Assembly (NCBI GenBank): GCA_002840355.1
Contig: PHAL01000021.1
Span: forward strand, 1 to 64,000
Reading direction: 5' to 3'
Source: Elusimicrobia bacterium HGW-Elusimicrobia-3
Lineage (GTDB): Bacteria > Elusimicrobiota > Elusimicrobia > Elusimicrobiales > UBA9959
Length of the DNA: 64,000 nt
Position numbers and translations under genes: made by a program. Below, piece after piece: positions 18,244-39,100 of the stretch. Under the pieces are notes generated by a model, which was given only the letters and a program-made list of their open reading frames with translations, had not been told where the DNA came from and searched no databases. Position 1 is the first letter of the stretch, and each line of letters starts with the position of its first letter.

Positions 18244-18981
18244 CTAGTTGCCGAAGTCGAAGCCCTTGAAGAGGTCTTCCTCGGCCTGCGCGCCGCCGGC
18301 GGGGGCGGCGTCGGGCCTGGCGGCGGGCTGCGGGGCCTGCGCGCCGGGCAGGTTCTGCATGCGGCCCTTGCCCTCGCCCACAGGCTGCACTATGACCTTG
18401 CGCACGCCCTCGGCGAAGGCCAGGAAGCCGTTGTCGAGGTTATAGTAGAGGCGGAAAGGGGATTCCTTCATCTGCGGCTCGTAGGCCTTGCCCAGGTTCA
18501 GGCGCTGCTGGTCCCAGCCGGGGTTGTAGACCAGTTTGCCGCGCACGTCCACCTCGCTGTCGGTGACCGGCAGCGAGAAATGGATCTTGAACAGGCCCAT
18601 GGTGTCGGTGATGCCGGGCGCGAAAGAGAGGTTGATGGCGGAATTGGCGTTCTCGTCTAGCGCGAAGGAGTCGCCGCCGTCGCCGCCGCCGGCGCCCTGC
18701 CGGCCGGTGTCGGGCAGGACCTTCACGGTGACGCCCTCTATCGGGTTGCCCTGGTAATCGGTGATGACGCCCTGGATGTTGCCGTCCAGGAAAACGCTCA
18801 TCTTGGTGGTGGAGAAGAACAGGAACTCGCGCTTGCCGGTGACCTTCTTGGTCAGCGACAGGTCGCCCACGCGCGAGTCCGTGTAGTCCACCACCTTCAG
18901 GCGCTTCATGCCGCCGAAGCAGCCGGCCAGCGGCGCGGCCAGCAGGGTAACGGCCAGTATGCGGATCAGTTCTCTCTTCAT
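18244..18981 (-). CDS. Lipoprotein of the motor operon
   Basis: 245 residues with a lipoprotein signal (LAGC, Cys21). The mature part has LDGNIQGVITDYQGNPIEGVTVKV, a carboxypeptidase-regulatory/Ig-like beta-sandwich pattern, a Gly-rich loop, a second beta-rich stretch, and a Pro/Ala-rich tail ending in EEDLFKGFDFGN. Function is unknown. It starts 16 nt after the motB stop with Shine-Dalgarno AGGAAGG, so it belongs to the motor operon. A lipoprotein beside a stator is reminiscent of FlgH- or MotX-like accessory proteins only by position; no homology is claimed. Confidence 0.7.
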   Translation of the reverse strand: MKRELIRILAVTLLAAPLAGCFGGMKRLKVVDYTDSRVGDLSLTKKVTGKREFLFFSTTKMSVFLDGNIQGVITDYQGNPIEGVTVKVLPDTGRQGAGGGDGGDSFALDENANSAINLSFAPGITDTMGLFKIHFSLPVTDSEVDVRGKLVYNPGWDQQRLNLGKAYEPQMKESPFRLYYNLDNGFLAFAEGVRKVIVQPVGEGKGRMQNLPGAQAPQPAARPDAAPAGGAQAEEDLFKGFDFGN

Positions 18982-18997
18982 AAATTAAGCCTTCCTG

Positions 18998-19801
18998 TTA
19001 TTCCCAGCCTTCCGCGGGCGCTTCTCCGGCCGGGGCGGGGGTCTGCGGGGCCGGGACTTCCGCCGCCGGCAGTTCGGGGGCGCCCTCTGGCGCTGCCGGC
19101 GCCTGCCCGGGCACGGCCGGGGCTCCCCCCTCCGGCGCTGCCGGGAGGGGCTTGCCGTCGGGCCCCGGGGGGCCGGTCGGGTCGGGATAGGGATTGTTCT
19201 TGATGAAGAACACCACGCGGCGGTTCTTCTTGCGGTTCGGCTCGCTGTCGTTGGGCACTACGGGGTGGTATTCCCCGTAGCCCACGGCCGCCAGCCGCTT
19301 CGGCGAGAACTTGTTCCCCAGCATGGATTTGACCACGCTGGTGGCGCGGGCGGTGGAGAGTTCCCAGTTGGAGGCGAACTGTTTGGTGGCTATCGGGATA
19401 TTGTCGGTGTGGCCTTCCACCACGATGTCGTGCTTCTCGGCCAGCTTCAGCAGCACCGGGGAAAGCTTGTCCATCTGGGCGCGCATCTGGTCGGTCAGGT
19501 CGGACTTGCCGCTCTCAAAGAAGGCCACCTGGCTCTGTTCCTCGAGGGTGATGCGCATGCCTTCCTTGTCTATCTGCACCTGGCCCGCCATCTTGCCCTC
19601 TTTGATCATCTCCTGGATGTCCTGCTGGGCCTTCTGCATGTCCTTATTGAGGGCGGCTGAAAGGGCGTAGAGAATAACGAAGAAGCAGACCAGCTCGGTC
19701 ATCAGGTCGCCGTAGGCGATGCTCCAGGGCGGGCCGGGGTGGCCCACCTGAGAGACCCTGGGGTCATCCTCGCTTATCATCCCTTTGACTTTTAGCCGCA
19801 T
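18998..19801 (-). CDS. motB: Stator protein MotB with OmpA-like peptidoglycan-binding domain
   Basis: 267 residues. After a short cytoplasmic start, one membrane helix (about residues 27-50) carries Asp32 in AYGDLMTELVCFF, the proton/ion-binding residue of MotB. An OmpA/MotB domain (about 85-200) shows EGHTDNIPI, NWELSTARA and EPNRKKNRRVVF, which anchor it to peptidoglycan. A Pro/Ala/Gly-rich tail of about 65 residues extends beyond the usual MotB end, which is unusual. With MotA it should form an ion-driven torque-generating stator. It begins 31 nt after motA. The helix and Asp context fit MotB better than ExbD/TolR, which lack the OmpA domain. Confidence 0.93.
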   Translation of the reverse strand: MRLKVKGMISEDDPRVSQVGHPGPPWSIAYGDLMTELVCFFVILYALSAALNKDMQKAQQDIQEMIKEGKMAGQVQIDKEGMRITLEEQSQVAFFESGKSDLTDQMRAQMDKLSPVLLKLAEKHDIVVEGHTDNIPIATKQFASNWELSTARATSVVKSMLGNKFSPKRLAAVGYGEYHPVVPNDSEPNRKKNRRVVFFIKNNPYPDPTGPPGPDGKPLPAAPEGGAPAVPGQAPAAPEGAPELPAAEVPAPQTPAPAGEAPAEGWE

Positions 19802-19832
19802 AGCCGTGAAACCTTTTCCGGGCGATTTTGCC

Positions 19833-20615
19833 TTAAGCCGCTTCTTTCTTTACGGATTTACGCTTTTCCGGCTCGAGATAGGCCTTCAGGTTGGCCTCCA
19901 CCACGCTGGGCGTGGCCCCGCTCTGCAGCAGCAGCACGCCGCGGATGATGATCTCCTTGACGAAGAGCTCCTCCTCGGAGCGGTGCTTCAGTTTGCCGGC
20001 CATCGGCAGGAAAAGCCAGTAGCCTGAGCCCAGGCCGTAAAAGGCCGCGGCCAGCGCCAGGGCCATGCGGCGCGGAACCTGGGCCACGTCGTCGATGGAG
20101 GACAGCATCATGATCATGCCCAGCACCGTGCCGATGATGCCGAAGGCCGGGGAATAAGTGCCCAGGGCGTTGAAGATCTCACGGCCGGCCTTGTGCCGCT
20201 CCCTGATGAAGTCGAGCTCGGTCTCGAGCATATTGCGGATGAATTCGTGGTCGGCGCCGTCTATGACCAGCTGCACGCCGCGCTTGAGAAAATCGTTATC
20301 AATGGCTTTGGCTTCGGACTCCAGCGCCAGGAAACCCTCTTTTTTAGCCTTCTGCGACAGGGACAGAAAGGTCGTGACCAGGCGCGAAGTGTCCTCCCCT
20401 TTGCTGCTGAGCACTTTTCTCAGGACCTTGGTCACGCCTATGACGGAGGAGAGCGGGAAATTGACCAGCAGGGCGCAGAAGGTCCCGCCCATCACTATCA
20501 GGAACGCCTCGGCGTTTAAGAAAGGCTTGAAGCCGTGTATGCCCTCGCCGAGAAAGATGGCCGCGAACACGAACCCGCCGAAGACTATGATGCCGCTGAA
20601 TGTAGCTATATCCAT
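19833..20615 (-). CDS. motA: Stator protein MotA
   Basis: 260 residues with four membrane helices. The conserved prolines Pro156 (TYSPAFGIIGTVLGMI) and Pro204 (FLPMAGKLKHRS) of the MotA family are present. Between helices 2 and 3 lies a cytoplasmic loop (about 60-145) that in flagellar motors contacts FliG and contains GFLALESEAKAIDNDFLKRG. A Shine-Dalgarno GGAG is 7 nt before the ATG. It lies between flbD and motB. MotA/MotB without hook, rod or filament genes in the window suggests a stator serving a non-flagellar rotor; the FliG-like partner is encoded 3 kb upstream on the same strand. Confidence 0.93.
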   Translation of the reverse strand: MDIATFSGIIVFGGFVFAAIFLGEGIHGFKPFLNAEAFLIVMGGTFCALLVNFPLSSVIGVTKVLRKVLSSKGEDTSRLVTTFLSLSQKAKKEGFLALESEAKAIDNDFLKRGVQLVIDGADHEFIRNMLETELDFIRERHKAGREIFNALGTYSPAFGIIGTVLGMIMMLSSIDDVAQVPRRMALALAAAFYGLGSGYWLFLPMAGKLKHRSEEELFVKEIIIRGVLLLQSGATPSVVEANLKAYLEPEKRKSVKKEAA

Positions 20616-20632
20616 TTTAGATCTCCGGTCGG

Positions 20633-20857
20633 CTACTTCCTCTCAAAGCTCTCGAGCGGGTTCACACATTTCCGCTCGGAATAAACCTGTTTCTTGTACT
20701 CCACTATCTTGGCGATGACCTCGTCCACCGGGTTCCTGACCAGGTAGCGGTTGCCGGTGGCCAGGTTCAGCACGGTGTCGGGCCCGGCCTCTATCGTTTC
20801 GATAAGTTCGGCGTTCACCACGACCATGGTCCCGTTGAGTTTTTCGAGCTTGATCAT
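20633..20857 (-). CDS. flbD: FlbD/SwrD family small protein
   Basis: 74 residues. The start MIKLEKLNGTMVVVNAELIE, then IEAGPDT and DEVIAKIVEYKKQ, are typical of the FlbD family, found beside motA in flagellar operons. In Bacillus the homologue SwrD increases flagellar torque, probably through the stator. It stands directly before motA (17 nt), as in classical flagellar clusters, supporting a flagellar origin of this motor. A TATAAT is centred just before the ATG. Confidence 0.9.
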   Translation of the reverse strand: MIKLEKLNGTMVVVNAELIETIEAGPDTVLNLATGNRYLVRNPVDEVIAKIVEYKKQVYSERKCVNPLESFERK

Positions 20858-20865
20858 CGTCTTAA

Positions 20866-20871
20866 ATTATA
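20866..20871 (-). promoter_or_regulatory. -10 box of flbD-motA-motB (leaderless)
   Basis: Exact TATAAT on the minus strand with 8 nt before the flbD ATG. No convincing -35 is present, and a sigma28- or sigma54-type motif is not seen. Confidence 0.5.
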
Positions 20872-20941
20872 CTTTATTGCCAATACGGGCGGGCGGCGGC
20901 AACCCTGGTTCCCCCCGCCCTGCGTACCCCGCCGGGGCGCG

Positions 20942-23371
20942 TCACTCTTCCTGTTTTTTGCCCTTGATGGCCCACTTCAGGCGCTCCGCGAAGGAAGCCT
21001 CGAGCGAGCGGTATTTCTCCAGCTCGGCGGCGGCTTGCGCCAGGCGGGCGGCGTCGGCGGCGGCCTGGTCGGCGGCGGCCTGCGCCTGCGCGGCGGCGGC
21101 GTCGCGCTCCTCGTCGAGCAGCGAGGCGGTCTCCTGGGCCTGCAGCTCCATCTGCTGCACCTTCTGCTTGAGGAAGAGCAGCTCGGATTCGAAGCGGGCG
21201 CGGTTCTCGCTCTCCAGCCTGAGGTTCTCGGCCTGGGCCTTGAAGCTGTCCGTCAGGCGGGCCAGCTCGGCCTCCTCGGCGGTCTTGCGGGACTCTATAG
21301 CTGAATATTTCTCGCGCAGGGCGGCGTACTCGGCCGACAGGCGCTGGCGCTCGGTCTCCACGGCCTGGGCGGCCTTGGCGGCTTCGGCGGCGCGGGCCAG
21401 GGACTCGGAGAGCTGGGCCTCGGCGCGGGAAGCCTGCTCGTCGCGGCGCTTGGCCTCGGCCTCGGCGCGGACCAGCCTGTCCTCGAAATCCTTGGTCCTG
21501 GCGGCGATGGTCTTTTCGAACACGGCGCTCTCGGCGGCGAGGCGGCGGTTCTCGGCCTCCAGCCTGACCAGCGAATCCATCGCGGCGGAGGCTTCCGCGC
21601 GGGCGGTAGCCAGCTGGGCGGTGTGGGTGGTCTCGAGCTGCTTGCGCACGGCGGCCTTCTCCTCTTCGGAGGAGGACTCGTACTGCATGCGCAGCTGGGA
21701 GACCTTGGCGTCCAGCTCGGCCTGGCGCTCGGCGGAGATCCTGGCGACCTCGGCCTGGGCGTCGGCGGAGATCTTGGTGACTTCGGCCTGGCGTTCGTCG
21801 GAGATCCTGGCGACCTCCTCCTGGCGCTCGGCGGAAACCTTGGCGAGTTCCGACTGGTGGGCCGCGGCGGCCCTGGAGGCTTCCTCGCGGCGTATCGATT
21901 CCAGCCTGGCAATCTCGGCCTGGTGGGACGAGGCGGCGTTGGCCAGCTCGGCCTGGTGCACCGCGGCCAGCCTGGACAGCTCCTCCTGGTTCCTGCGGGA
22001 GGCCTCGGCCAGCTCCTCGGCGTGCCTGGCGGCCAGCTCGGCCCCGTAGCCGTTCTTCACCCGGGCTATCTCGGCCTTGTAGCCGGTGGCCTGGGCTTCC
22101 AGCTCGCTCTGGTGGGCGGCCTTGATGGTGTCCAGCTCGGCCTTCTGGCGGCGTATCTCTTCGAGCTGCGCGGCCATGTTCTGGGCGAGCTGCATCTTCT
22201 CGAGCCGCAGCTGCCCGCGCTCCTTGTCGAGCACGGCGTTGATGGCCTGCACCCGGGACACGAAGCCTTTGATCTTGACGAGTTCGGAGATGGCGCGCAC
22301 CTTCTCGCCGTTCACGTCGGCCAGGGACTTCTCCTTCTCCAGCAGCGCGGCGTCGTAGCGCTCGGCCTGCTTGCGGAGGGCCTCGTTCTTCTCCTCGTTC
22401 TTGCGGTCGGAGATGGCGCCGATCTCGGCCTGCAGGCGGCCTATCTCCTTCTGCATCTTCTCCAGTTCGAAAGCCTGTTTTTCGGCGTTGTGCTTCTCCT
22501 CGAGGCGCGCCTTCTCCTCGCGGCCGCGCAGCGAGATATTCTCGCTCCGCAGGTCCGCGATCTCGCGCTCCTTCTCGGGGATCATCTTGATATAGGTCTC
22601 TACCGAAGCCTTCTCGCGCTCGGCGCGGGCCACGTCGTCGCGCAGCCTGGAGACCTCGCGGTCGGACATGGTCTTTTCCAGCGAGATCTTGCGCAGCTCG
22701 TCCTCGGTGTCGCGCAGCTTCTCGGAGGCGGACTTGAGAGAGCGGATGGTCTCCTCGCGGGAGGTGATCTCTTTCTGCCACTGGGCCTTTTCGTCGAGCC
22801 AGCGGCGCTCCATCTCCTGGAGCCTGTAAATAAAGTGCCCTTCCACGTCCCGCCCCTGCACCTCGCGCTCGGACATCTGGTTCTTGAGCGTGGTCATCCA
22901 GGTCTCGCGCTCCTGCGCGAGGCGGGTCTCCATCTCTTTGATCTTGGACTTCAGCGTGAGGCGCTCTTCCTCGACCTCGTGGTCGCGGCGGTCGCGGCGC
23001 ATCTTGTCCTGTATATCCTTAAGCGAGGACTCCACGCGGGAGGAGAGGGCCTCGTCCTGCTGGTTCTTGAGCGTGGCGAGCAGCGCCTTCTCTTTCTCGG
23101 CCGACAGCAGCTTCTCCATGTCGGAGATCTTGCGCTCCAGCTTGTCCTTCTCTTCCTGCAGGCGGCGCTCTTCTGCGTCGTCCTTGGCGGCGGACTGCGG
23201 GGCGGCGGCCGGCTGGCCGAAGCCCTGGGGCAGCGAGGGAAAACCGGCCTGCGGCATGCCAGGCATGGACGGCAGAGGAGGCCTGCCGGCAGGAGGCGCC
23301 GGCGGCATACCAGGCTTGAGCATCCCCGGGGGAAGCGGGGGCATCTTGGGTATTTTCATCTCGTCTGCCAT
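20942..23371 (-). CDS. Long coiled-coil protein of the motor locus
   Basis: 809 residues with no signal peptide or membrane helix. Residues 1-60 are Pro/Met/Gly-rich (PKMPPLPPGMLKPGMPPAPP); from about 65 to 790 the sequence is almost continuous charged coiled coil. Near residues 480-570 it becomes regular with 11-residue periodicity (units such as AEVARISAERQ), a right-handed hendecad pattern. The end carries the basic segment FAERLKWAIKGKKQEE. A 700-residue coiled coil would be about 100 nm long, so a cytoplasmic scaffold or filament is likely. It lies between the FliF-FliG fusion gene and flbD-motA-motB on the same strand. A role comparable to motility scaffolds such as AglZ is speculation by context only. 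Confidence 0.75.
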   Translation of the reverse strand: MADEMKIPKMPPLPPGMLKPGMPPAPPAGRPPLPSMPGMPQAGFPSLPQGFGQPAAAPQSAAKDDAEERRLQEEKDKLERKISDMEKLLSAEKEKALLATLKNQQDEALSSRVESSLKDIQDKMRRDRRDHEVEEERLTLKSKIKEMETRLAQERETWMTTLKNQMSEREVQGRDVEGHFIYRLQEMERRWLDEKAQWQKEITSREETIRSLKSASEKLRDTEDELRKISLEKTMSDREVSRLRDDVARAEREKASVETYIKMIPEKEREIADLRSENISLRGREEKARLEEKHNAEKQAFELEKMQKEIGRLQAEIGAISDRKNEEKNEALRKQAERYDAALLEKEKSLADVNGEKVRAISELVKIKGFVSRVQAINAVLDKERGQLRLEKMQLAQNMAAQLEEIRRQKAELDTIKAAHQSELEAQATGYKAEIARVKNGYGAELAARHAEELAEASRRNQEELSRLAAVHQAELANAASSHQAEIARLESIRREEASRAAAAHQSELAKVSAERQEEVARISDERQAEVTKISADAQAEVARISAERQAELDAKVSQLRMQYESSSEEEKAAVRKQLETTHTAQLATARAEASAAMDSLVRLEAENRRLAAESAVFEKTIAARTKDFEDRLVRAEAEAKRRDEQASRAEAQLSESLARAAEAAKAAQAVETERQRLSAEYAALREKYSAIESRKTAEEAELARLTDSFKAQAENLRLESENRARFESELLFLKQKVQQMELQAQETASLLDEERDAAAAQAQAAADQAAADAARLAQAAAELEKYRSLEASFAERLKWAIKGKKQEE

Positions 23372-23539
23372 AAATTTAAGGTTAAGCTCTGACCGTCTTG
23401 CTGCCTCTATATTCTAAAAAAACGCGGTTGCAGTTTCGTTACAGGATTGTTAACAACTTTATAACCATGGGCCCGCCAAGGGTACGCCCTCTCCTAAGCT
23501 TCTCCCCTCCCATTCTTAATACTCCTTAGCCTGGGATCC

Positions 23540-23630
23540 GGCCGGGGATGGTTCCGGAAGGCCCTCACGGGGTGGAGCGGAGCGACACTTTCTTCGCCCG
23601 ACGCCCGGAGAAGGCATCCCTTGCCGGGCA
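23540..23630. repeat. Degenerate relative of the dispersed repeat
   Basis: The segment GGGGATGGTTCCGGAAGG ... CCCGGAGAAGGCATCCC keeps the layout and right end of the repeats at 7028 and 25935, but the interior differs. It fills most of the 266-bp gap between the coiled-coil and FliF-FliG genes. Confidence 0.4.
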
Positions 23631-23637
23631 CGAACAG

Positions 23638-25578
23638 TTATCGACCCACGCTCGCTTTGAAGCCGGCCAGCCATTCGGTGGCGGCCGGGTCGCCGGAGAG
23701 GCTGGCGTACTTCTCGTAGGCGGCCACCGCCTCGTCCACGCGCTGCAGGCCGTAGTAGGCCGCGCCCAGGTACTGCCAGGTGGAAGCGTCGCCCGGGTTC
23801 AGCGAGGAGGCGTATTCCAGGTACTGCAGGCTCTCCTGCACCTGGCCCTGGTTGTACATATTGGCGCCCGCCTCGGCGTACTGTTTGGCCTGCTCGAGCT
23901 GCTCCGGAGTGGGTCCGGCCGCGGCCGGGGCGGAACCGGACAGGCTCTCGTATTTCTTGCGGCGCTCGTCGCCGGAGGACATCTCGTCGCCCTCTATCAT
24001 ATAGACTTCCTGCGAATTGCCGCCGCGCGAGGCGATCTTGCCCTCGGCTTCCAGCGCCTTGATGGCGTCCAGGATCTTCATCTGCGCCTCGTCCGACTGG
24101 GCCAGGCTGATATCGCCGGAGTACTCCATGATCTCCTTGACGGAGTTCACGGCGCCCTGCGACATGTTCGTGAAGAACTTGTTGACGATGGCAGGATCGG
24201 CCTTGGCCAGCGCCTTCGCCACGTCCTCGTTGTTAAGGTTGCGGATGATGGACTGCATGTCGCGGTCGGCGAAATTGACGATGTCCTCGAACATCAGCAC
24301 GATCTGGCGCACCTTGGCGTAGACGTCCGGCTTCTGCGTCTTGAGGTACTCTATGATGTTCTTGCGGGTGGCCGGGTCGGAGTCGTCGAGCATCTTTATC
24401 AGGCGCTCTATGCCGCCCATCACGAAATCCACGTTCTCCCGGATATCCTTGTCTATGGCCTCTATCTGCTCGCGGGTGGCCTGGCGCACGGTCAGGGCCT
24501 CCAGCGCCACGCGGCTCTGCATCTCCACCGGCAGCATCGACAGGGCCTGGCGGCTCAGGTCGGGCTTGAGGTAGCTCAGCACCACCGCGATGACCCACGG
24601 GTCCTCTTTGCGCAGCAGGAACAGGTAGATCAGGCGCTTGAGGTTCTCCTCGTTCAAATAGGTGAAAGGCTCGAATTTCTTCATAAGGTCGTCCTCATCC
24701 TCACTCTTCTCCTCCTCCTTCTGAAGGAAGTTCATATCTATGCTCTGGTGACCCTCGGTCTCCTGCTTGCCCTCTTCGTCCCCCCCGCCGCCGCCCTCTT
24801 CGCGCTTGTCCTCTATGTTCACCTCGGCGCCGGGCTTGGCCATCAGCGCCTTGATGTACTTGCGGAAGAAGCCCCAGAGCGGGCCGAACAGGAACAGCAG
24901 CAGCAGCAGGAACAGCAGCGCGTAAAGCAGGGGCAGGTAGACGGACGGCTTCTTGAGGTCGTCGAGCGGGTTGCCGGCCTTGAACTTGGTGGGCTTGAAC
25001 ACCACGGTAGGCGCGCCGGTCTTGCGGATCTTGTAGGGCACCAGGAAATCGTCTATGCGCTCGCGGGCCAGCGCGATGGAGGCCGGGGCGAGCTGTTCGT
25101 CATGGATGATGGTCAGCTGGAAGCGGGTGATCTCGGTCTCCAGGCCGTAGCGGATCTCCTGCACGCCCTTGGCCTGCTGGGCCTGCTGCCCCTGAGCCGC
25201 CTCGGGGCGCTTGTTCTCGCCGCTCAGCACGGAGCGGGGCTTGGGGATGCCGGGCAGGATGAAATCGGTGTCGGCGGCCTCGTCGCTGCCGCCCTTCTCC
25301 TTGTACTTCTGCATCACGCCCAGGCCTTCCTTGCTCTGCTCGGCCTTCTTGGAGATGACCTCAAGTTCCACGTCGGCGAAAACGAAAGACCGGTCGGCCC
25401 CGAGGATGGGGTCGAGGATCTCCTTCTTGACCTTGGTCTCCGCCTCGCGGCGCATGGAGTCCTGCTTCTGCATCAGCGAGGTCTCCATCATGGGATTGCT
25501 GAGAGCGGCGCTCTGGGCAGATACCCGGGGCGTCCAGAGGCTCATGACGAGCGCTAGGGCGGCGAAAAGCCTTTTCAT
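23638..25578 (-). CDS. FliF C-terminal domain / FliG fusion with C-terminal TPR (rotor protein)
   Basis: 646 residues. Residues 1-22 are a signal peptide. Residues 45-185 resemble the periplasmic C-terminal domain of FliF (ILDPILGADRSFVFADVELE ... EIRYGLETEITRFQLTII). One membrane helix follows at 213-233, then an acidic cytoplasmic linker. Residues 300-520 are FliG middle and C-terminal domains: EDPWVIAVVLSYLKPDLS replaces the classical EHPQTIAVVLSHL motif, followed by FEDIVNFADRDMQSIIRNL and FFTNMSQGAVNSVKEIM. Residues 555-640 form TPR-like helices. The topology equals FliF's last membrane pass joined to FliG, without the ring-building N-terminal half of FliF or the FliG N domain. By eye the charged FliG torque residues are largely replaced. 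Likely the rotor partner of the MotA/MotB encoded nearby. Confidence 0.85.
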   Translation of the reverse strand: MKRLFAALALVMSLWTPRVSAQSAALSNPMMETSLMQKQDSMRREAETKVKKEILDPILGADRSFVFADVELEVISKKAEQSKEGLGVMQKYKEKGGSDEAADTDFILPGIPKPRSVLSGENKRPEAAQGQQAQQAKGVQEIRYGLETEITRFQLTIIHDEQLAPASIALARERIDDFLVPYKIRKTGAPTVVFKPTKFKAGNPLDDLKKPSVYLPLLYALLFLLLLLFLFGPLWGFFRKYIKALMAKPGAEVNIEDKREEGGGGGDEEGKQETEGHQSIDMNFLQKEEEKSEDEDDLMKKFEPFTYLNEENLKRLIYLFLLRKEDPWVIAVVLSYLKPDLSRQALSMLPVEMQSRVALEALTVRQATREQIEAIDKDIRENVDFVMGGIERLIKMLDDSDPATRKNIIEYLKTQKPDVYAKVRQIVLMFEDIVNFADRDMQSIIRNLNNEDVAKALAKADPAIVNKFFTNMSQGAVNSVKEIMEYSGDISLAQSDEAQMKILDAIKALEAEGKIASRGGNSQEVYMIEGDEMSSGDERRKKYESLSGSAPAAAGPTPEQLEQAKQYAEAGANMYNQGQVQESLQYLEYASSLNPGDASTWQYLGAAYYGLQRVDEAVAAYEKYASLSGDPAATEWLAGFKASVGR

Positions 25579-26089: not shown

Positions 26090-27655
26090 TTATTTCACCT
26101 GGCGCAGGAAGTTCTTGACCATCGTGTTGTTGGGATTGATCTCCACGACCTTTTCCCAGATGACCTTGGCCTTCTCCTTCTGGTCCATCAGGTAGAAGGA
26201 GCTGCCCATGATCTCGAGGGCGGTCTCGTTGTTGGGCTCGAGGTCCAGGATGTCCTGGGCGCGCTTCATGGCCAGGTCGTACTTGCCGTCGTAGATGGCC
26301 TGGCGGGCGTCGTAGGTGCGCTGGTCGATATAGGTGAAGATCTCGGGGCCCTCGGGCTTGCGGGTGAGCTCGCTCACGCCGGCCTCGCGCTCCACCATGT
26401 TCAGCAGGGAGAGCAGGCGGTCGTTCTTCGGGTCCTTGTTGAAGGCGTGGCGCAGCACGTTGACCGAGGCGCGCAGGTCCTTGCCGTCCACGTAGGAGAT
26501 GATGCCGCGGCGGGTCAGCGTGGGGACCTCGTCGCCGCCGGTGGCGTCCGGCACGTAGTCGATGGCGCCCTGCAGGCGGGTGACCATGCGGCGGATCTCG
26601 GGGTTGCCCGGGTCGGCGTCCATCGCGGCGCGCAGCTTCTCCATGGCGCGGCTGAAGTAGCCGCTCTTGAAGTACTGCAGGGCCTGGCGGACCAGCTCAC
26701 GCACCTCGCGGTCGTGCTTGGCCTTGTTGCTCTGGCCCATGCGCAGCGTCACGGAGAAGCGGGTGGTGGAACCCAGCGCGTGCACGCCCTGGGCCACGTC
26801 GAAACCGAGGTTCTTGTACTTGATGCCGAGGCCGAAGTCGGCCTCCTGGATCTCGGGGGCGCCCTGCACGCCGAAGCGCAGCGCGGCCCAGTACATCAGC
26901 CAGTACTCGCCGCCGAAGCGCCAGTTCATCGAGGACCCCTGGGGCTTGTTCAGGTCGAAGCCGAACAGCAGGCTGCCCTTGAACAGGCTCAGGGCCTGGC
27001 CGAACTTCAGGGTCAGGGGCAGCTTGTCCTCGGTGTCGCCCGAGGCCATGGAGAAAACGTTCTGGATGCCGACCGCGGCGCGGTAGGTCTTGGAGAACTT
27101 GTTGAGCATCGCTATGTCGATGGCGTTAAAGGAGTCCACGGAGGTGTCCAGCGAGCGGCTGATATTCTTGGCCATGATGCCGAAAGCCAGCTTGTCCGAA
27201 ACATCGCGGCCCCAGGAGAAAGCCAGCGCGCGCTCGGTGCTGTCGAAAGTGCCGAGCGTCTTGATGTCGATGATCTCGTCGCCGGCGGGGTTGGCGGTGA
27301 TGGAGATCTTCTCGAAGCCGGTGGACTGCAGCTGGGTCATGCTGACGGCCCAGGTGCCCTTGGTGCTGGTGGGGTGCGCGTAGGTGAAGAAGTTGAGCGT
27401 GGTCTGCTCGAAGAGCGTGGCCTGCATGGCGGTGAATTCTTTGCGCTCGAGCAGGGTGAGGGCCGCGGGGTTCCAGTAGGAGGCGGAGGCGTCGTCGGCC
27501 ACCGCGAAGAAGGCGCCGCCCATGCCCAGGCCGCGCGCGCCGGCGCCGTAGCTCATGAAAGCGCCGGGCTGGCCGCCGCCCTGGGCCAGGGCAGTCGCCG
27601 CCGAAAAGACAATAAAAAACCCCATGGCGAGGCTGAAGCGCATAACACGCTTCAT
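26090..27655 (-). CDS. PorV/PorQ-like outer-membrane barrel fused to TPR domain
   Basis: About 521 residues from the ATG at 27653-27655, chosen because it gives a clean signal peptide (MKRVMRFSLAMGFFIVFSAA...); an ATG at 27706 is possible. The mature N-terminus shows SYGAGARGLGMGGAFFAVAD followed by ASASYWNPAAL, the signature of PorV/PorQ (UPF0164) barrels. The barrel spans roughly residues 25-325 and is followed by TPR-like repeats (about 335-521, e.g. AMKRAQDILDLEPNNETALEIMG). PorV in Bacteroidetes shuttles C-terminal-domain proteins to the cell surface in type IX secretion. Here the gene lies next to a giant protein ending in a FlgD/CTD-like domain. It has its own promoter and a c-di-GMP riboswitch. 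Confidence 0.82.
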   Translation of the reverse strand: MKRVMRFSLAMGFFIVFSAATALAQGGGQPGAFMSYGAGARGLGMGGAFFAVADDASASYWNPAALTLLERKEFTAMQATLFEQTTLNFFTYAHPTSTKGTWAVSMTQLQSTGFEKISITANPAGDEIIDIKTLGTFDSTERALAFSWGRDVSDKLAFGIMAKNISRSLDTSVDSFNAIDIAMLNKFSKTYRAAVGIQNVFSMASGDTEDKLPLTLKFGQALSLFKGSLLFGFDLNKPQGSSMNWRFGGEYWLMYWAALRFGVQGAPEIQEADFGLGIKYKNLGFDVAQGVHALGSTTRFSVTLRMGQSNKAKHDREVRELVRQALQYFKSGYFSRAMEKLRAAMDADPGNPEIRRMVTRLQGAIDYVPDATGGDEVPTLTRRGIISYVDGKDLRASVNVLRHAFNKDPKNDRLLSLLNMVEREAGVSELTRKPEGPEIFTYIDQRTYDARQAIYDGKYDLAMKRAQDILDLEPNNETALEIMGSSFYLMDQKEKAKVIWEKVVEINPNNTMVKNFLRQVK

Positions 27656-27710
27656 TTCAGCCCATATAGCCAAGGGGGCAAAGGCAATACAAAGATTGCG
27701 TTTCATTGTT

Positions 27711-27786
27711 TTCGGCAGCCTGACCCCCGCTCACTTAGCGGGTCTTAGCTTTGCGCCGCCGGTTTTCACCGGCTTTGCTATTATCG
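27711..27786 (-). ncRNA. Cyclic-di-GMP-I (GEMM-I) riboswitch
   Basis: On the minus strand the leader contains AATAGCAAAGCCGGT, a GAAA tetraloop closed by GCCGGT/ACCGGC, then GGCGCAAAGCTAAGACC, a second hairpin CCCGCTAAGTGAGCGGG, and GTCAGGCTGCCGAAAA. This is the order of conserved GEMM elements: GCAAA, GNRA-capped stem, CGCAAAGC, variable stem, and AGG-TGCC closing P1. The base before the first CAAA is G, as in c-di-GMP rather than cAMP-GMP sensors. It lies between the promoter and the PorV-like start codon. No obvious intrinsic terminator follows, so control is probably at translation (inference). Confidence 0.85.
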
Positions 27787-27831
27787 TACCAGTACTGCAT
27801 TACAAACTCGTTACAGATTTACGGCATTAAT

Positions 27832-27859
27832 ATTATAGCAGATTAAACGGCTTTGTCAA
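27832..27859 (-). promoter_or_regulatory. Near-consensus sigma70 promoter of the PorV-like gene
   Basis: Exact TTGACA (27854-27859), 16-bp spacer and exact TATAAT (27832-27837) on the minus strand. Start near 27825, giving a leader of about 170 nt that contains the riboswitch. Confidence 0.85.
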
Positions 27860-27864
27860 GGGGC

Positions 27865-27886
27865 GGGTATTGACATGTCAATACCC
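27865..27886. promoter_or_regulatory. Perfect 22-bp palindrome upstream of the PorV promoter
   Basis: Two halves of GGGTATTGACA and its exact complement meet with no spacer. The site ends 5 bp upstream of the -35 box. A perfect palindrome at this position is typical of an operator for a dimeric regulator, although it could also form a hairpin at the end of the giant-gene transcript. Confidence 0.6.
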
Positions 27887-33900: not shown

Positions 33901-36142
33901 TATCGATGGCCTGGCCGAACTTGCCGTCGCCGTCGTCGAGGAACAGGCGCACGCTCTTGAGGTCCTGGCCGGAGCCGGTGCCGGTCTTGATGATCTTGAA
34001 CGACTTGATCGTACCGATGAAGTTGTCGGTCCAGGCGTGGATGGCCAGGAAGCCGGCGCGCTCGGTGCCCTGCTCCACGTAATCGTACTGGCCCGCGTCC
34101 ACGCCGGCCTGCCACCAGGCGCCGATATCCTGGCCCTGGATCAGCACCGTGGCGGGCTGGTTGCGCACCGGGGAGGTGGCGGTGACTATCGGGAAGTTGT
34201 TGTAGGCGACGCCGACGAAAGTGGAGCTGAGCACCACGAACGACGGGTTGTCCAGCGCCACCGCGAAGCTGCGCGGGGTAGCGGCCACGGTGGACATGCG
34301 CACCGCGAAGAAGAAGTTCCTGGCCACGTCGGAGACTATCGCGGCGGTGGAGACCTTGGTGTTCAGGTCCTCGAACTTCCAGCCCATCAGGCCCGAATCC
34401 CAGGTGCCGCTGGACATGAAGATGTCCACCGGGGCCGCGCCCAGCGCGGTCTCGCCGTCGAACAGGCCCAGCTGGCCGGCGGACGGGTTGTCGGCGTAGA
34501 GGCCGATCTCCACGATGTCGGAGTAGGCCAGCGTGCCGGAGCTCTTGAGCTGCATCGACTTGAGGTAGGCCGGCGGCGAGCCCACCGGCTGCGTCTGCAG
34601 CGTCAGGCGCAGCATGGGCACGGGGGCGGGGATGTCGGTTATCACGCCGTCGCCCTGGTAGATGGCGTTCTTGCTGATGCCGATCGAGGTCTTCGAAACG
34701 GGCAGCGGGTCTTCGGGGGCCATATCCCTGGGGTTTATCACCAGGCCCGACAGCACCAGGTCGGGGCTGGAGCCCTGCGGCAGGCCGCGGCCGGTGTCGG
34801 AGGTATGGCCGAACACTCCGGGGCGGTGATAGTCGGTGACGTTGATGCGCAGTGTCTCCACCATCGTATCGTAGAGCATCAGGGTGCGCTCGCCGCGGTC
34901 GGCCGGCAGGAAGACGTAGTCGGTGGCGTTGGTGATATAGTCGCGCAGGTCCGCCGAACCCTTGGAGTTCGTGACCATGTTGATCTTGCCGGTGTAGTAG
35001 CGGCCGTTCACCGGGTCGCCGGTGGCCACGTTGCCGTACTGGTCGCGGGCGCGGAGCGTTATGTAGCCGGGGGTCTGCACGCGCAGCGGGCTGGCTATCG
35101 TGTACGTGTGATGCAGGGTGAAGTAGGCGGCCGTGCTGGGCGTGATGTACTGGTTCTGCGAGACCTGGGGCAGGGTGATGTTGCCCTCGGAGATGTACGA
35201 GTTGGCCGTGACCGTGGCCGTGCCGACCAGCGTGTCCCAGATGTAGAAGTTGGCGAAAGAGTAGCCGGCCGGGATGTCCAGGTCCAGCGGGTTGGTCAGC
35301 AGCAGCTTCCAGCTGGGGTTGGAGGAGACGGTGGCGGTGGACGGGTCTATGCCGCCGTAGGTGCTGTTGCGCAGCGCCGACAGGCGCACGGTGACCTGCG
35401 TATTGGTGGTCGTATTGTTGTCATACGCGTCTTTTAGCGCCACGGTGACCACGGTGGGGGTGGCGAGGTTGGTAGTGTAGTCGGCGTACTGCACGGTGGT
35501 GCCGGCCACCAGGCGGCGCGGCGGCGTGTAGAACAGCACATGGTCGGGGGCGGACGGGGTCACGGTATAGGACGACACGGCCGGCAGCCAGCCCTTGGAC
35601 TGCGCCGTGTTCACGCTGAGCTGGTGTGTGGTAGCCGAGACCAGCGTATCTATCAGGTAGAAACTGGTGGTAGCCTGGCCGAGCAGCATCCTGGCCGAGC
35701 CCGGCTGGGCGGCGAAGGCGCCGGGGTCCGGCGCGGAGAACTTGACCTGGCCGGCAGAGTCGGAGGCCAGCGAGAAGCTGATGCCCGCGCCGACCGCGTC
35801 CTCCTGCCCGCTGGCCACCGGGGTCGGGTTGCCGTAATGGTCCTCTATCGACAGCAGGAACACCTGCGAGGTGACGCCCGCCGTGAGCTCCTGCCCGGCG
35901 TTGAAGCTGACGTTCACGCGGTAGGTCAGGTCCGGCATGATGACCACGGACTGCGTGGAAGCCGACCAGCCCTCGCGCTCCGGCACCTGCACCTGGACTA
36001 TGGGCCGTACCGGCGTCATCGAGGAGGCGTAGACCGAAGAGGCGGTCGTGTCGAGATAGTAGAACGTGGCCGTGTAGCCGTCCAGCGGGATCTGGATGGC
36101 GGACACCGTGGAGGTGAACACCGGCGGGAAAGCGCCGGACAT
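27941..36142 (-). CDS. Giant repeat protein, C-terminal 2733 residues (after frameshift)
   Basis: This frame begins in the middle of a domain at an ATG (36140-36142) with no signal peptide or Shine-Dalgarno site, so I read it as the continuation of the frame at 36144-64000. Order: four or so filamin/invasin-like domains (to about 34.8 kb); about seven modules of ~200 residues, each with a D-x-[DNG]-x-[DN]-G-type loop such as DKDNNGFLGGIDE; two DxNGDGLxD loops (DVNGDGLPDNYD near 29.35 kb, DINGDGLLDFES near 29.26 kb); an fn3 domain (about 28.3-28.6 kb); and a C-terminal domain beginning SSFPNPVDLRKG and ending ILRKIGVIH. That last domain resembles FlgD-Ig and T9SS sorting domains. Presumably exported to the cell surface. 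Confidence 0.85.
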   Translation of the reverse strand: MSGAFPPVFTSTVSAIQIPLDGYTATFYYLDTTASSVYASSMTPVRPIVQVQVPEREGWSASTQSVVIMPDLTYRVNVSFNAGQELTAGVTSQVFLLSIEDHYGNPTPVASGQEDAVGAGISFSLASDSAGQVKFSAPDPGAFAAQPGSARMLLGQATTSFYLIDTLVSATTHQLSVNTAQSKGWLPAVSSYTVTPSAPDHVLFYTPPRRLVAGTTVQYADYTTNLATPTVVTVALKDAYDNNTTTNTQVTVRLSALRNSTYGGIDPSTATVSSNPSWKLLLTNPLDLDIPAGYSFANFYIWDTLVGTATVTANSYISEGNITLPQVSQNQYITPSTAAYFTLHHTYTIASPLRVQTPGYITLRARDQYGNVATGDPVNGRYYTGKINMVTNSKGSADLRDYITNATDYVFLPADRGERTLMLYDTMVETLRINVTDYHRPGVFGHTSDTGRGLPQGSSPDLVLSGLVINPRDMAPEDPLPVSKTSIGISKNAIYQGDGVITDIPAPVPMLRLTLQTQPVGSPPAYLKSMQLKSSGTLAYSDIVEIGLYADNPSAGQLGLFDGETALGAAPVDIFMSSGTWDSGLMGWKFEDLNTKVSTAAIVSDVARNFFFAVRMSTVAATPRSFAVALDNPSFVVLSSTFVGVAYNNFPIVTATSPVRNQPATVLIQGQDIGAWWQAGVDAGQYDYVEQGTERAGFLAIHAWTDNFIGTIKSFKIIKTGTGSGQDLKSVRLFLDDGDGKFGQAIDKEVTDPANPPTFNPADPGTYVLPLYNPGVDGAISISTRTYYVVYEFQPDAVPNMTHGARLENSGVSLIDGVVGAFTPVASSTVPLYATADLVYLLDVNKSAPNDFSKPSFVTQNDQNKPVARLTMKVTDTIGSAVWRGLKLDRWVTASENGGTDAWNMVTDVKRISLWHDSTGDGLLQTTTTIKDTEVVLLGANTRNFPYDTLKTPLVSTDTVIRVTDIQKFFPSDSPFPMAPGRLIVNDAQPNPALKEVVYYGSVDVLTNSFGSLTRGAEGTTQAEWSSGTVISGQAVLPLIGDGTSLDGQVIFSDPRDYFITYDIDPLANVSNFSYLGMAIRTTDYFYIEAPKQMSQANVGVTAPGKTLSLVGRVSEFADSVIVTASDTFTGENLQQQAVNQPILDFTMKTDVADAMWRWMLVYATGTAIRDGTAVPDVSAVKIWYDKDNNGFLGGIDEEVGSGTFGNTIYGPLVARVSLSQEQRIVTSGKAALDNTSMRYFLTYDIRDSAMPNDALGNPRYLGAYLKPESFPQGSPSFDDTSKNALSLPNKFFADDSNLTYVSRVREIISSPSTVTVNTEPVFAYEGGRSFPNLRLTQDVVSPGPMDAAWLVTSTAGIPSSGYAMVDNEVVQYAGTAAGALTMVTRGVFNTPVVNHSSGAALGGMVRQGWDNYPFMKMTLLTAGYGVRWRGFRLSRMQPSGLNGYDSDISMVKVWKDNGNGIFDRDPVTGMNTSDVLVGSARFGVNDPVGKATVYVADPALTNQDYVVVSATPTIIFVTMDVDRASRFSHEQLTPQNDVLGVEVPFESNFLFGPDNSGHVADFLGPAASAMTVVMPTLNNVTLEPEDISPVAAVQNDKNVGLLAMHMKVDKTSALLQAVKLRRLGTAADSDIDLIKIWKDSNDNCILDAVDTASTTAGLYPNLMSYGNEAYSSSTINVVLKTPIVITTSPSCAFVSYDLSQFAIVGSTTALNLGGIADLTIGIPNTVTMTTWPVNTMPVKIEEIPSNVMLGANDMAAALLQSGGVGQAQVGVPMLRFNLTTEAGNARWSAVKVQRTGASNDPNAPFGKNTDVKFVSIYQDSNQNDVLDVNDINISEAGTKLAVPLSSTVTVPFALVLDSTAGFPVSGRLYVSDAELMTYSGSGISASGKPYLTVTYRGERLGDFITPLINHPAGAKVRKVDLFDQDNALNTQITVSLAQTQTLSPLAQTFFAVYDIGEMAVKANKVGLMIRDRSWLTVNVPHDISAQVYMNIDKALPQGTYTGEYPVASSLVPIRAITLAVSGTNISPRSAQKDTKNVPLVTLDLATLSDFVAIGQVNFTQGGTISSATVGLGDGDLTSVSLWKDDGDGAFSPITDYRLGSAVHSAANSFESVISVPIMDGNLPYLIVSTSSMILHLTCDVSSSTDLSGADTLGHLASVSLAAFSNLRGLGGLPLAAGQNFSDVYPIASNQVLIAPAIIPLTPVYKNIMLASNGYPAYAVTDSSGNVLLGAGNLPVADPSYWIYNYTASGCRADEPLIDVNGDGLPDNYDFYGSGKCLNVTLNNSGLPSFDINGDGLLDFESNLDYVPDKIVDDGTGKPLYFIGDFVKNANLLLAVSDLGAVPSAWSAKTTELPALWNPASGAVDSYEVSLGGNFEDPIGIKNSWQSVGASLGGSVTNVALSPGHLTKLTSRIEVNTSSFTVQSTEGFATEGIIYVGNEIMLVRKLDGVTFAVQQRGVQGSFKGPHTAWGESVSDRGYIVSVRGKMADGRYVPSENGVPVLIYRIDTSYPTVPGAPEPQVAKGVASGQVYTLKWDAASDPESNIMSYEVQERVGTSPVWKTIAAIPGFKTGGAINNIYSVGDVSVPGETPRKTGTYYTYRVRSWNFAGIHSEWSPISTPAGTTIGEELISKVSSFPNPVDLRKGGVEGRVDITYTLNDNAEVTMTIYDLLGYVVKEFRFTSGSDGGKLGPNHVLWDGKNGLGGTVSKGGYIVRVKASSPKGSKVILRKIGVIH
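27944..28250 (-). other. FlgD-Ig/T9SS-like C-terminal domain of the giant protein
   Basis: About 100 residues: FPNPVDLRKGG, ITYTLNDNAEVTMTIYDLLG, HVLWDGKNGLGG and GGYIVRVKASSPKG, then ILRKIGVIH at the end. FPNP, the W-D-G-x-x-x-x-G turn and a basic last strand are shared by FlgD-Ig domains and by C-terminal sorting domains of type IX secretion substrates. Confidence 0.8.
29858..33949 (-). repeat. Seven calcium-loop-like motifs in the giant protein
   Basis: Loops at about 33.90-33.95, 33.37-33.41, 32.55-32.60, 31.75-31.79, 31.19-31.24, 30.65-30.70 and 29.86-29.91 kb. Examples: LDDGDGKFGQAIDKE, KDNGNGIFDRD and KDDGDGAFSPITD. Each is preceded by a strand such as V-K-I-W or V-S-L-W. The acidic spacing resembles dockerin or EF-hand loops. 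Confidence 0.65.
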
Positions 36143-39100
36143 GGGTGGACAGCTGCACCTGCACCGGGGCCGTGGCGACCGACGGATTGTCGAACATGTC
36201 CCGCAGTTCCGCCTTGAACACCTGCATTTCGCCGAACCTGTCCGTCAGCTTGCCGGCGGTCATGGACCTGGGGGCGTTGCCGAAGGCGACCTTGGCCACC
36301 TGGGCGGGGTTGACGCGCAGGTCGTGAAGGGCGGGCTGCATGGTGCCGGAGCGGGCCTCCAGGCGCCAGTAGCCGGGCCTGCCGGCCTCGTAGGTATTGG
36401 CGGCCGGCGAGGTGCCGGAATAGGACGACGTCCTGTCATGGTACCGGAACCTCGCGAAAGTCTTGTTGGGCGGTATAATGACCGCGTTGATGAACTGCGT
36501 GTCGAACTCGTCGCGGAAGCCGTAGTCGCCGATACCGCCGAACGTGGCCAGGACGCGGCCCAGGCCGGTATGCACCGACTGCTGCTCGGAGGGAATGCCC
36601 AGATAGACGCCGGTCTCGCCCTGCTTGGTTATGTTGTCGAAGTCGTCGCGGCGCTCCACCGTGAACGCGGCGCCGACAGCCGCCATCTCCTGGATACCTA
36701 CGAGGGCTTCGGCCTGGCTTGATATATAGACCAGTTTGGTCGGGGTGCCGCCGGTGGTGGTTAGTTTGCCGCTGAGGTTCTGCCTGGCCGCGGCGTAGGT
36801 GGCATAAGAAGCGGGGTTGAGCGTGGTGGTGCCGATCCAGACCCGGGCCCAGTCACCGGCCCGGCTGGAGACCTGGTAGGCTATCGCCGTGGAAACGCCC
36901 ACGCGCCCCTGGTCGTCGGTATAGACCAGCGTGGAGACGCCGATATCCTGCCAGGCGGCGCCGTCGTAATAGAGCAGGGTGCCGGTGGAGCCGTAAACCT
37001 CGCCCATCATGACCTGCGCGGGCAGGCCGGCCGAGGAGATGTTATTGTCGAAAGCGTCGGTCAGCTGGGCCGCGAGATCCTGCAGGCCCGGCGTCAGCAG
37101 CGAACCGGCGGGAACTTCCAGGTCGCTATTAGGGGTGACGCGGTACACGCTGGGCGGGCCGGGCAGCACGTAGAGCTCCAGCGGCGGCGTGACGCTGATG
37201 GCCGGCAGCAGCGAATCATAAGCCGAGATCGTGTCGGGGCCGGCCTTCTTGAGCGTAAACCAGTTCGAGAGGGTCTTAACGCCGAAGTCGGAAGCGTAAT
37301 AGGCGGTGGTCGGCGCCGCGAGCGACGGGTCCTGCAGCAGGCTGGCCTGGTCGGTAGCCACGAACGTGGCGGTGCCCAGGTAGACGTTGGGACCGGTGGA
37401 GCAGACGTTCCCGTAGGCGTCCTTGACGTAAAGCTGGGCCGAGAACGGCACGCCGGCCACCGCGTAGGTGGAGGCCACCACGAAGGCCATACTGGCGGCG
37501 GGGCCGGGGTTGACGGTCAGAGTGGAGATGCCGGAAGCGTAGCCGGCCGGCGAGGCCGCCGTGGTGGCCGCCAGCACCGTGTAAGTGCTTATCGAGGTGC
37601 GCGGGTCCAGCGAGAAGACCGAGCTGCCGTTGGACAGGGTCTGCGGGGCCGGGGCGGAGGTCTTAGCGTCTCCGGGCAGCGTCAGGCGCACCTCCGGCAT
37701 CACCGCCACCGGGCTCGTGTTCTGAGCGGCGCCCACGGCGTCCGTGGCCCTGTTGTGGAACAGGTCGGTCAGGTAGACGTTGGCGAACAGCGCGCCCGCG
37801 CCTATCGTATACTCGGCCGGGGGGCCGCTGCGGCCGGGCCAGGCCAGGGAGGCGCTCTTGCACGGCGGGCTTACGGCGCACTTGCCCTCCACCAGCGTCT
37901 GGCCGGGCAGCAGCACCTCCAGCCTCACCGCCGTGGAAGCGAAGACTTTGAACGAGTCTTTGGCCGCCAGATCGTCGTTGCGGCAGAGCCCGCCGGGATT
38001 GCCGCCGCAGACCAGATTGTCGGCGCCCGCGACCGGGAACACCTTCACGGTGGCGGCGCCCGTCCTGGTGACCAGGTTCAGCGGCACCTGCATCGTGCCG
38101 TAATTGAGCGGGGCGCTGGCGGGGTCGATGTCGTAGATGTCCGAGGTCACCAGGTAGACGGTCGGGCCCATCGAGAGGCCCTGGTAGACGTTCATGTACT
38201 GGTCCACCAGGTTCACGGTGGCGCTGAAGCCGGTGCCGGCCGTCTGCGTAGAGGCGGTGAGCGCCTTGCCACCGGCGGGATAAGCGCCGGAGCCGGGCAG
38301 GGCCGTCTCGCCGGGCAGCACGAGCTGCAGGCCCAGCGGGGCGGCGGGATGCACGGTGAACGTGGAGGATTCGGGGTCGTCGGAGAGGCCGGAAGACCCG
38401 AAGTCCGAGGCGGTCAGGTAATGCGTGGCCGCGCGGCGCATCTGGAAGTAGATCAGGTCGGTGTAGCCGAAAGCGGTATCCACCGCCACGGTGCTGACCG
38501 CGGGGGCGTAAGCGTCGGTGGGAGTATTGACCTTGACATCCACGGGCCTGCCCGGCACGAGGTTAAAATAGTCGTCCACCACGCCTACGCGCACCTTGAA
38601 GTCGGTGCTGCCGGCGGTCGTGTCCTCGGCCTTGCCGGACTTGCCGGTGGCCGAGCCCTGGCTGAAGGACTCGCCCGGCAGCAGCAGCAGCAGGCGCTTG
38701 GGCACGCCGGGCGCCACCGTCACCGTGGTGGCCGTGTCCTGGCCGAGCACCGGGCCGCCGGCCAGGCCGGGGACCACGGCCTCGGCGCGCAGCACGTTGC
38801 TGCCGGCGCGGATCGGGGTGACGGTGAACGTGGCGGAACCGGTGATGATCTGCGAGGCCGGCACGACAGTGGCCACGGGGTCGTCGGAGAGCAGGCGTAT
38901 CTCCTGGCTGGCGCCGGGCGTCAGGTTCCAGAAAGAGTCGGTAATGTCCACGGTTACCGTGAACGGGAAGCCGGCCTGCTGGCCCGCGGGCGAGCCGGAG
39001 CGGCCGTTGCCGGTGGAACCGGCCACCCGGCTCTCCCCCTCCACCAGCGCGCGCAGCTTGGTGGGCGTGTTGGGCACCAGCAGGAAGCCGCCGCTGGGCG

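Follow-up and report, generated by a model that had tools for sequence, protein, structure and literature searches.

The window, the whole stretch of DNA analysed here (64,000 nucleotides; positions 1 to 64,000 of contig PHAL01000021.1 of Elusimicrobia bacterium HGW-Elusimicrobia-3), carries on its minus strand a gene (26090..27706) for a 538-residue PorV/PorQ-family protein with C-terminal TPRs. Its match to the NCBIfam PorV/PorQ model (NF033709) scores 113.8 bits against a cut-off of 90, in agreement with the target named in a preliminary description of this DNA. Upstream on the same strand lie a GEMM-I aptamer (RF01051; 27711..27789) with complete P2 and P3 and a sigma-70-type promoter (27832..27859). 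That description had proposed the aptamer and had suggested a covariance-model search of the GEMM-I family as a check; a cmscan search of the window recovers the complete model (positions 1–87) on the minus strand at 27789–27711 with 59.4 bits (E 4.4e-9), above the gathering cut-off of 35 bits. The promoter, described there as near-consensus, is in fact exact, with a −35 box TTGACA (27859–27854), a 16 nt spacer and a −10 box TATAAT (27837–27832) giving 12 of 12 consensus matches, and its distance from the aptamer (−70/−48) is kept in almost all orthologues.

Within the family to which this organism belongs, about 35 genomes have the same aptamer ahead of the same PorV gene. P2 and P3 show compensatory changes among orthologues, with two-sided changes at five aptamer pairs, and all aptamer cells are paired in the 25 orthologues aligned. 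Since the association recurs in so many genomes together with these compensatory changes, it is not attributable to chance, and the almost invariant binding pocket rules out a decayed riboswitch. No paper on GEMM-I riboswitches in Elusimicrobiota was found in the literature searched.

The alignment places an A rather than a G, preceded by a U, at 27779 (minus strand; model position 11), a position corresponding to G20 in the numbering of Vc2; the two bases are referred to below as A20 and U19. Canonical c-di-GMP aptamers have a G at position 20. Among Elusimicrobiota aptamers aligned to a model built here, UA occupies positions 19–20 in 83 of the 90 aptamers of the same family; the other families mostly have G20. 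The family is represented here only by MAGs, and the related loci likewise come from Elusimicrobiota MAGs. A20 and U19 are kept together in about 80 aptamers from at least ten genera and have both changed together in three different leaders. The layout was checked against that of the Geobacter cGAMP riboswitch, in which the ligand is contacted by G8, A9, A11, A12, A14, A41 and C75 (PMC6274999), and the pocket (G-A-x-A-A-x-A, A, G-C) is the same except for the lower P2 pair. This pair is a G-C of the c-di-GMP type (columns 12–37) in 25 of 25 sequences, while in the Geobacter aptamer it is C15-G40 (PMC6274999). Pairs at this position are reported to affect ligand selectivity (PMC9262584); the lower P2 pair modifies selectivity and does not strictly define GEMM-Ib.

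The PorV start codon (27704..27706) lies 4 nt after the aptamer and is conserved in frame in all orthologues. About 35 distinct orthologues have an ATG 3–8 nt past the aptamer that shares the reading frame of mature PorV, with no intervening stop codon, and the leader lengths of 102, 117, 120, 123, 126, 138, 141, 150, 162, 177, 180 and 243 nt are all multiples of three. Because the frame is kept and stop-free despite this variation, the ATG adjoining the aptamer is very probably the real start of PorV, the region downstream of it thus being translated. A start at the second in-frame ATG (about 27655) is ruled out, as relatives have ACG, GTG, TTG or CTG there. No Shine-Dalgarno sequence is seen before the AUG adjoining the aptamer. 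The first 41 residues (27584..27706) form a signal peptide with a predicted cleavage site, and its Phe-Phe-Ile codons (UUU UUU AUU) supply a U tract.

The preliminary description found no evident terminator-type expression platform. This does not hold: as judged from comparison of orthologous leaders, a conserved intrinsic terminator is present downstream of the aptamer, within the PorV coding sequence (27614..27679, minus strand; stem 27679–27619, U tract 27619–27614). It begins 32 nt past the aptamer and ends in UUUUUU followed by AUU. Between the start codon and the terminator lies a small hairpin (GCAAU-CUUUGU-AUUGC; 27684..27699) in which a compensatory U-A/A-U change occurs in 10 of 25 sequences. 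Across the 25 orthologues 96.7% of the cells of the aptamer, small hairpin and terminator are paired, and two-sided changes affect 10 pairs; they number 43 cells, compared with 10.3 such cells in shuffles and at most eight in slid versions; RNAalifold independently recovers most of the same helices. Distant relatives (L009 and L063–L066) differ in sequence, yet have a stem and a U-rich tract at the same place. The codons of the U tract are rare in the large ORFs of the window, where TTT occurs 31 times versus 431 for TTC and ATT accounts for 19 of 501 isoleucine codons. The folding energy of the leader is modestly lower than that of synonymous recodings (mean z −1.3, n = 38; −0.33 in this genome), and because the gain is only modest the terminator is assigned from covariation, conservation and the U tract, not from energy. 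No paper describing a riboswitch terminator within a signal peptide was found in the literature searched. A further leader type occurs in relatives within the genus (L025, L083, L093, L079, L086 and others), in which an MKERF-like ORF starts 1–7 nt after an A20 aptamer and a hairpin and U tract likewise lie within a translated hydrophobic stretch.

PorV is followed on the same strand by genes for a FliG-TPR protein (23638–25578), an 809-residue protein (20942–23371), MotA (19833–20615), MotB (18998–19801) and a 245-residue protein (18244–18981); from the gene order, those at 18244..25578 are presumed to form one cotranscribed unit with PorV. The genome contains three GEMM-I aptamers, all with A20, two of them on this contig. 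The second (C83:66531–66453, minus strand), 2.5 kb beyond the window, has a strong 5′-UTR terminator and leads a gene for a HEAT-repeat protein followed by a giant Ig-like ORF. The latter encodes a Big_13 protein of about 10,004 codons that starts at contig position 65435, outside the window, and occupies 35421..63917 (minus strand) within it. An ORF of about 2500–2700 residues with a C-terminal FlgD_ig-like domain (27941–36142, minus strand) runs in a different frame from the giant ORF and overlaps its end; the start of this shorter ORF is therefore probably below 35421. The third aptamer (C22:66419–66509, plus strand; L003) is followed by a terminator and a gene for a kelch protein with a weak T9SS-type C-terminal tail. 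In the kelch leaders L010, L035 and L003 a second copy of the aptamer 3′ end (GGCTGCCGAA-like) follows about 40 nt downstream, and two alternative 3′ strands could therefore close the aptamer. The link to a motor and a giant adhesin drawn in the preliminary description is strengthened by these data, as the second copy stands ahead of the HEAT/giant-adhesin operon and many genomes of the genus likewise have two aptamers about 30–55 kb apart on one contig. Since A20 copies lead PorV, the giant-adhesin operon and the kelch protein, the motor and adhesin genes are likely to be under one signal.

A 22-bp perfect palindrome, GGGTATTGACATGTCAATACCC (27865..27886), lies upstream of the promoter. Its core, TTGACATGTCAA, occurs four times in the genome (window 27865–27886, C83:66757–66768, C50:64895 and C87:8368), with about 0.2 occurrences expected for a 12-mer, and two of the four sites precede riboswitch promoters. 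About 22 nt separate the core from the downstream −35 box at the promoters of riboswitches 1 and 2 and at another strong promoter on C87. The pattern TTGACA-A/T-GTCAA is kept in several genera, and the palindrome is possibly a shared operator. At C87:8368 (L214) the strong promoter and palindrome stand before an apparent structured RNA gene, a stretch with no match to an Rfam family at gathering score. The window also contains a tmRNA gene (1514–1164, minus strand; 133 bits).

These features make it likely that a functional GEMM-I cyclic-dinucleotide riboswitch controls PorV-TPR, an outer-membrane gene of a putative gliding machine, and probably also FliG, MotA and MotB, by transcription attenuation. 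Terminators follow copies 2 and 3 as well. The direction of switching is read from copy 2, where the upper 5′ arm (UCUUCGG) of a classical 5′-UTR terminator and the aptamer 3′ end (CCGAAGA) are complementary. Both motifs are conserved across genera and the sequence between them varies; read as a candidate antiterminator, they predict an OFF switch, in which ligand would hold CCGA in P1 and so free the terminator to form. At copy 1 ligand binding would stabilize P1 and the 3′ strand of the aptamer, so that this strand would no longer disturb the terminator, or ribosomes would be barred from the adjacent AUG, or both; the terminator would then form and transcription would stop. In the absence of ligand, read-through might proceed via an RNA antiterminator or because a ribosome that initiates at the neighbouring AUG crosses the terminator. 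On balance the OFF direction appears the more probable one for this locus.

The opposite arrangement, in which ligand promotes read-through, is suggested by the A20-type relatives in Geobacter, which are ON switches (PMC9262584, PMC6456294). In the Geobacter pilM riboswitch, however, the aptamer 3′ strand forms part of the terminator (PMC9262584), whereas here copies 1 and 2 form their terminators independently of that strand, and the 5′ side of the copy 2 terminator pairs with the aptamer 3′ end; an ON switch at this locus is regarded as rather doubtful. Under the preferred OFF reading, the means of read-through at copy 1 is conjectural, as no antiterminator there scores better than synonymous recodings (mean z +0.67). 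A GGGGG (P3)–CCCCC (terminator) pairing is present in 21 of 25 sequences, yet it too is no better than the recodings. An AGGCUG–CAGCCU pairing is ruled out by its loss in AGACU variants, and a pairing between the small hairpin and a UAAUGC stretch upstream is ruled out because it is not conserved. Because no copy 1 antiterminator exceeds the recodings, ribosome-mediated read-through becomes a serious alternative, in which the aptamer beside the AUG would gate ribosome entry and the ribosome itself would melt the terminator. The AUG stays within 3–8 nt of the aptamer across families with the frame kept and the terminator falls within about the first 30 codons, both consistent with such coupling; the lack of a visible Shine-Dalgarno sequence argues against it, and its probability is put at somewhat short of even.

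The ligand is predicted to be a purine cyclic dinucleotide, either c-di-GMP or 3′,3′-cGAMP. The genome encodes five GGDEF domains, and each retains the Asp that marks strict diguanylate cyclases. A DNA pattern for Hypr-type GGDEF domains (Ser/Thr at the Asp site) finds none in 77 genomes (41 + 36), while the Asp version of the pattern, used as a positive control, is found in 41 of 41. No CD-NTase (SMODS) is found in this genome, which is 97% complete; three of 32 genus members have one. The expected cGAMP makers were thus not found, and an unknown enzyme, differently spaced GGDEF domains or the missing 3% of the genome are possible explanations. The preliminary description had presented the element as a c-di-GMP riboswitch; the GEMM-I class stands, but with A at position 20 the assignment of c-di-GMP as its ligand is insecure, although no signature of a cGAMP synthase was found.

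A20 favours cGAMP and the enzyme complement favours c-di-GMP. Were c-di-GMP the ligand, A20 would be tolerated or would merely tune affinity, which is compatible with the invariant Asp of the GGDEF domains, the outcome of the Ser/Thr and Asp pattern searches, the lack of a CD-NTase in this genome, the c-di-GMP-type lower P2 pair and the G20 of the kelch riboswitches in sister genera. In addition, cGAMP riboswitches can bind c-di-GMP by means of a protonated adenine (PMC9262584). Against this stand the retention and joint change of A20 and U19 and the behaviour of the Geobacter aptamers, in which A20 makes GEMM-Ib selective for cGAMP and A20G alone converts Gmet_0970 from cGAMP to c-di-GMP specificity (PMC6456294); the case for c-di-GMP is evenly poised. 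A ligand of 3′,3′-cGAMP, made by an enzyme without known signatures, would explain the match of the A20/U19 pocket to the Geobacter contact residues (PMC6274999) outside the lower P2 pair and a single lineage-wide switch from G20, and cGAMP drives gliding in Bdellovibrio (PMC9140294). The c-di-GMP type of the lower P2 pair and the lack of a detectable Hypr GGDEF or CD-NTase count against cGAMP, which is rated slightly below c-di-GMP in probability.

A tblastn search places GEMM-I aptamers before PorV-like genes throughout the phylum (families f1, f7, f8, f11, f12, f20–f23, f26, f27 and others), and in f7 and f8 the AUG likewise adjoins the aptamer. The other families with clear orthologues have G20, as seen for f12, f7 and f8, and when PorV is placed on a tree of 50 rows one change accounts for the A20 group (support 100/98). 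This is most simply read as one G-to-A switch, basal to this organism's family, with a polarity that depends on the root. A20 and G20 can coexist in one genome, since the kelch riboswitch has retained G20 in some sister genera. A more far-reaching proposal is that the family rewired an ancestral c-di-GMP regulon (PorV, motor, giant adhesin and kelch) to 3′,3′-cGAMP through a G20-to-A20 change in nearly all of its GEMM-I leaders, with a synthase of unknown type and with PorV read out by the signal-peptide-embedded terminator; as a whole this is considered unlikely.

On the sequence evidence, the element is a genuine GEMM-I riboswitch; its terminator, unusually, is embedded in the coding sequence, and its discriminator base is noncanonical. 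If so, Elusimicrobiota would steer the PorV, motor and giant-adhesin system by one direct RNA signal, and orthologous riboswitches at one gene, with G20 or A20, would constitute a natural experiment in riboswitch specificity. A terminator overlapping the conserved code of a signal peptide would be an unusual expression platform. A20 riboswitches without a recognizable cGAMP synthase would imply either an unknown enzyme or that A20 by itself is not enough to assign the ligand.

By analogy of gene content, the system resembles that of Bdellovibrio Bd0367 in placing a gliding-type proton-channel motor and adhesin genes under cyclic-dinucleotide control. A Hypr GGDEF is known in Bdellovibrio and the available text of PMC9140294 describes no riboswitch of its own for Bd0367, whereas here there is a riboswitch and no such enzyme was found. 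With the Geobacter GEMM-Ib riboswitches (Gmet_0970 and pilM) it shares A20 and U19, the G-A-x-A-A-x-A junction layout, the control of surface machinery and the presence of several copies per genome; it differs in phylum, targets and lower P2 pair, in the lack of a detected Hypr GGDEF and in its predicted OFF rather than ON direction. The full-length covariance match, the P2/P3 architecture, the ligand-contact A and C and the G-C lower P2 pair are as in RF01051 GEMM-I riboswitches such as Vc2 and Cd1, and terminator-based control is shared with Cd1. Compared with these, the riboswitch described here has A rather than G at position 20, a terminator within the coding sequence and a start codon 4 nt from the aptamer.
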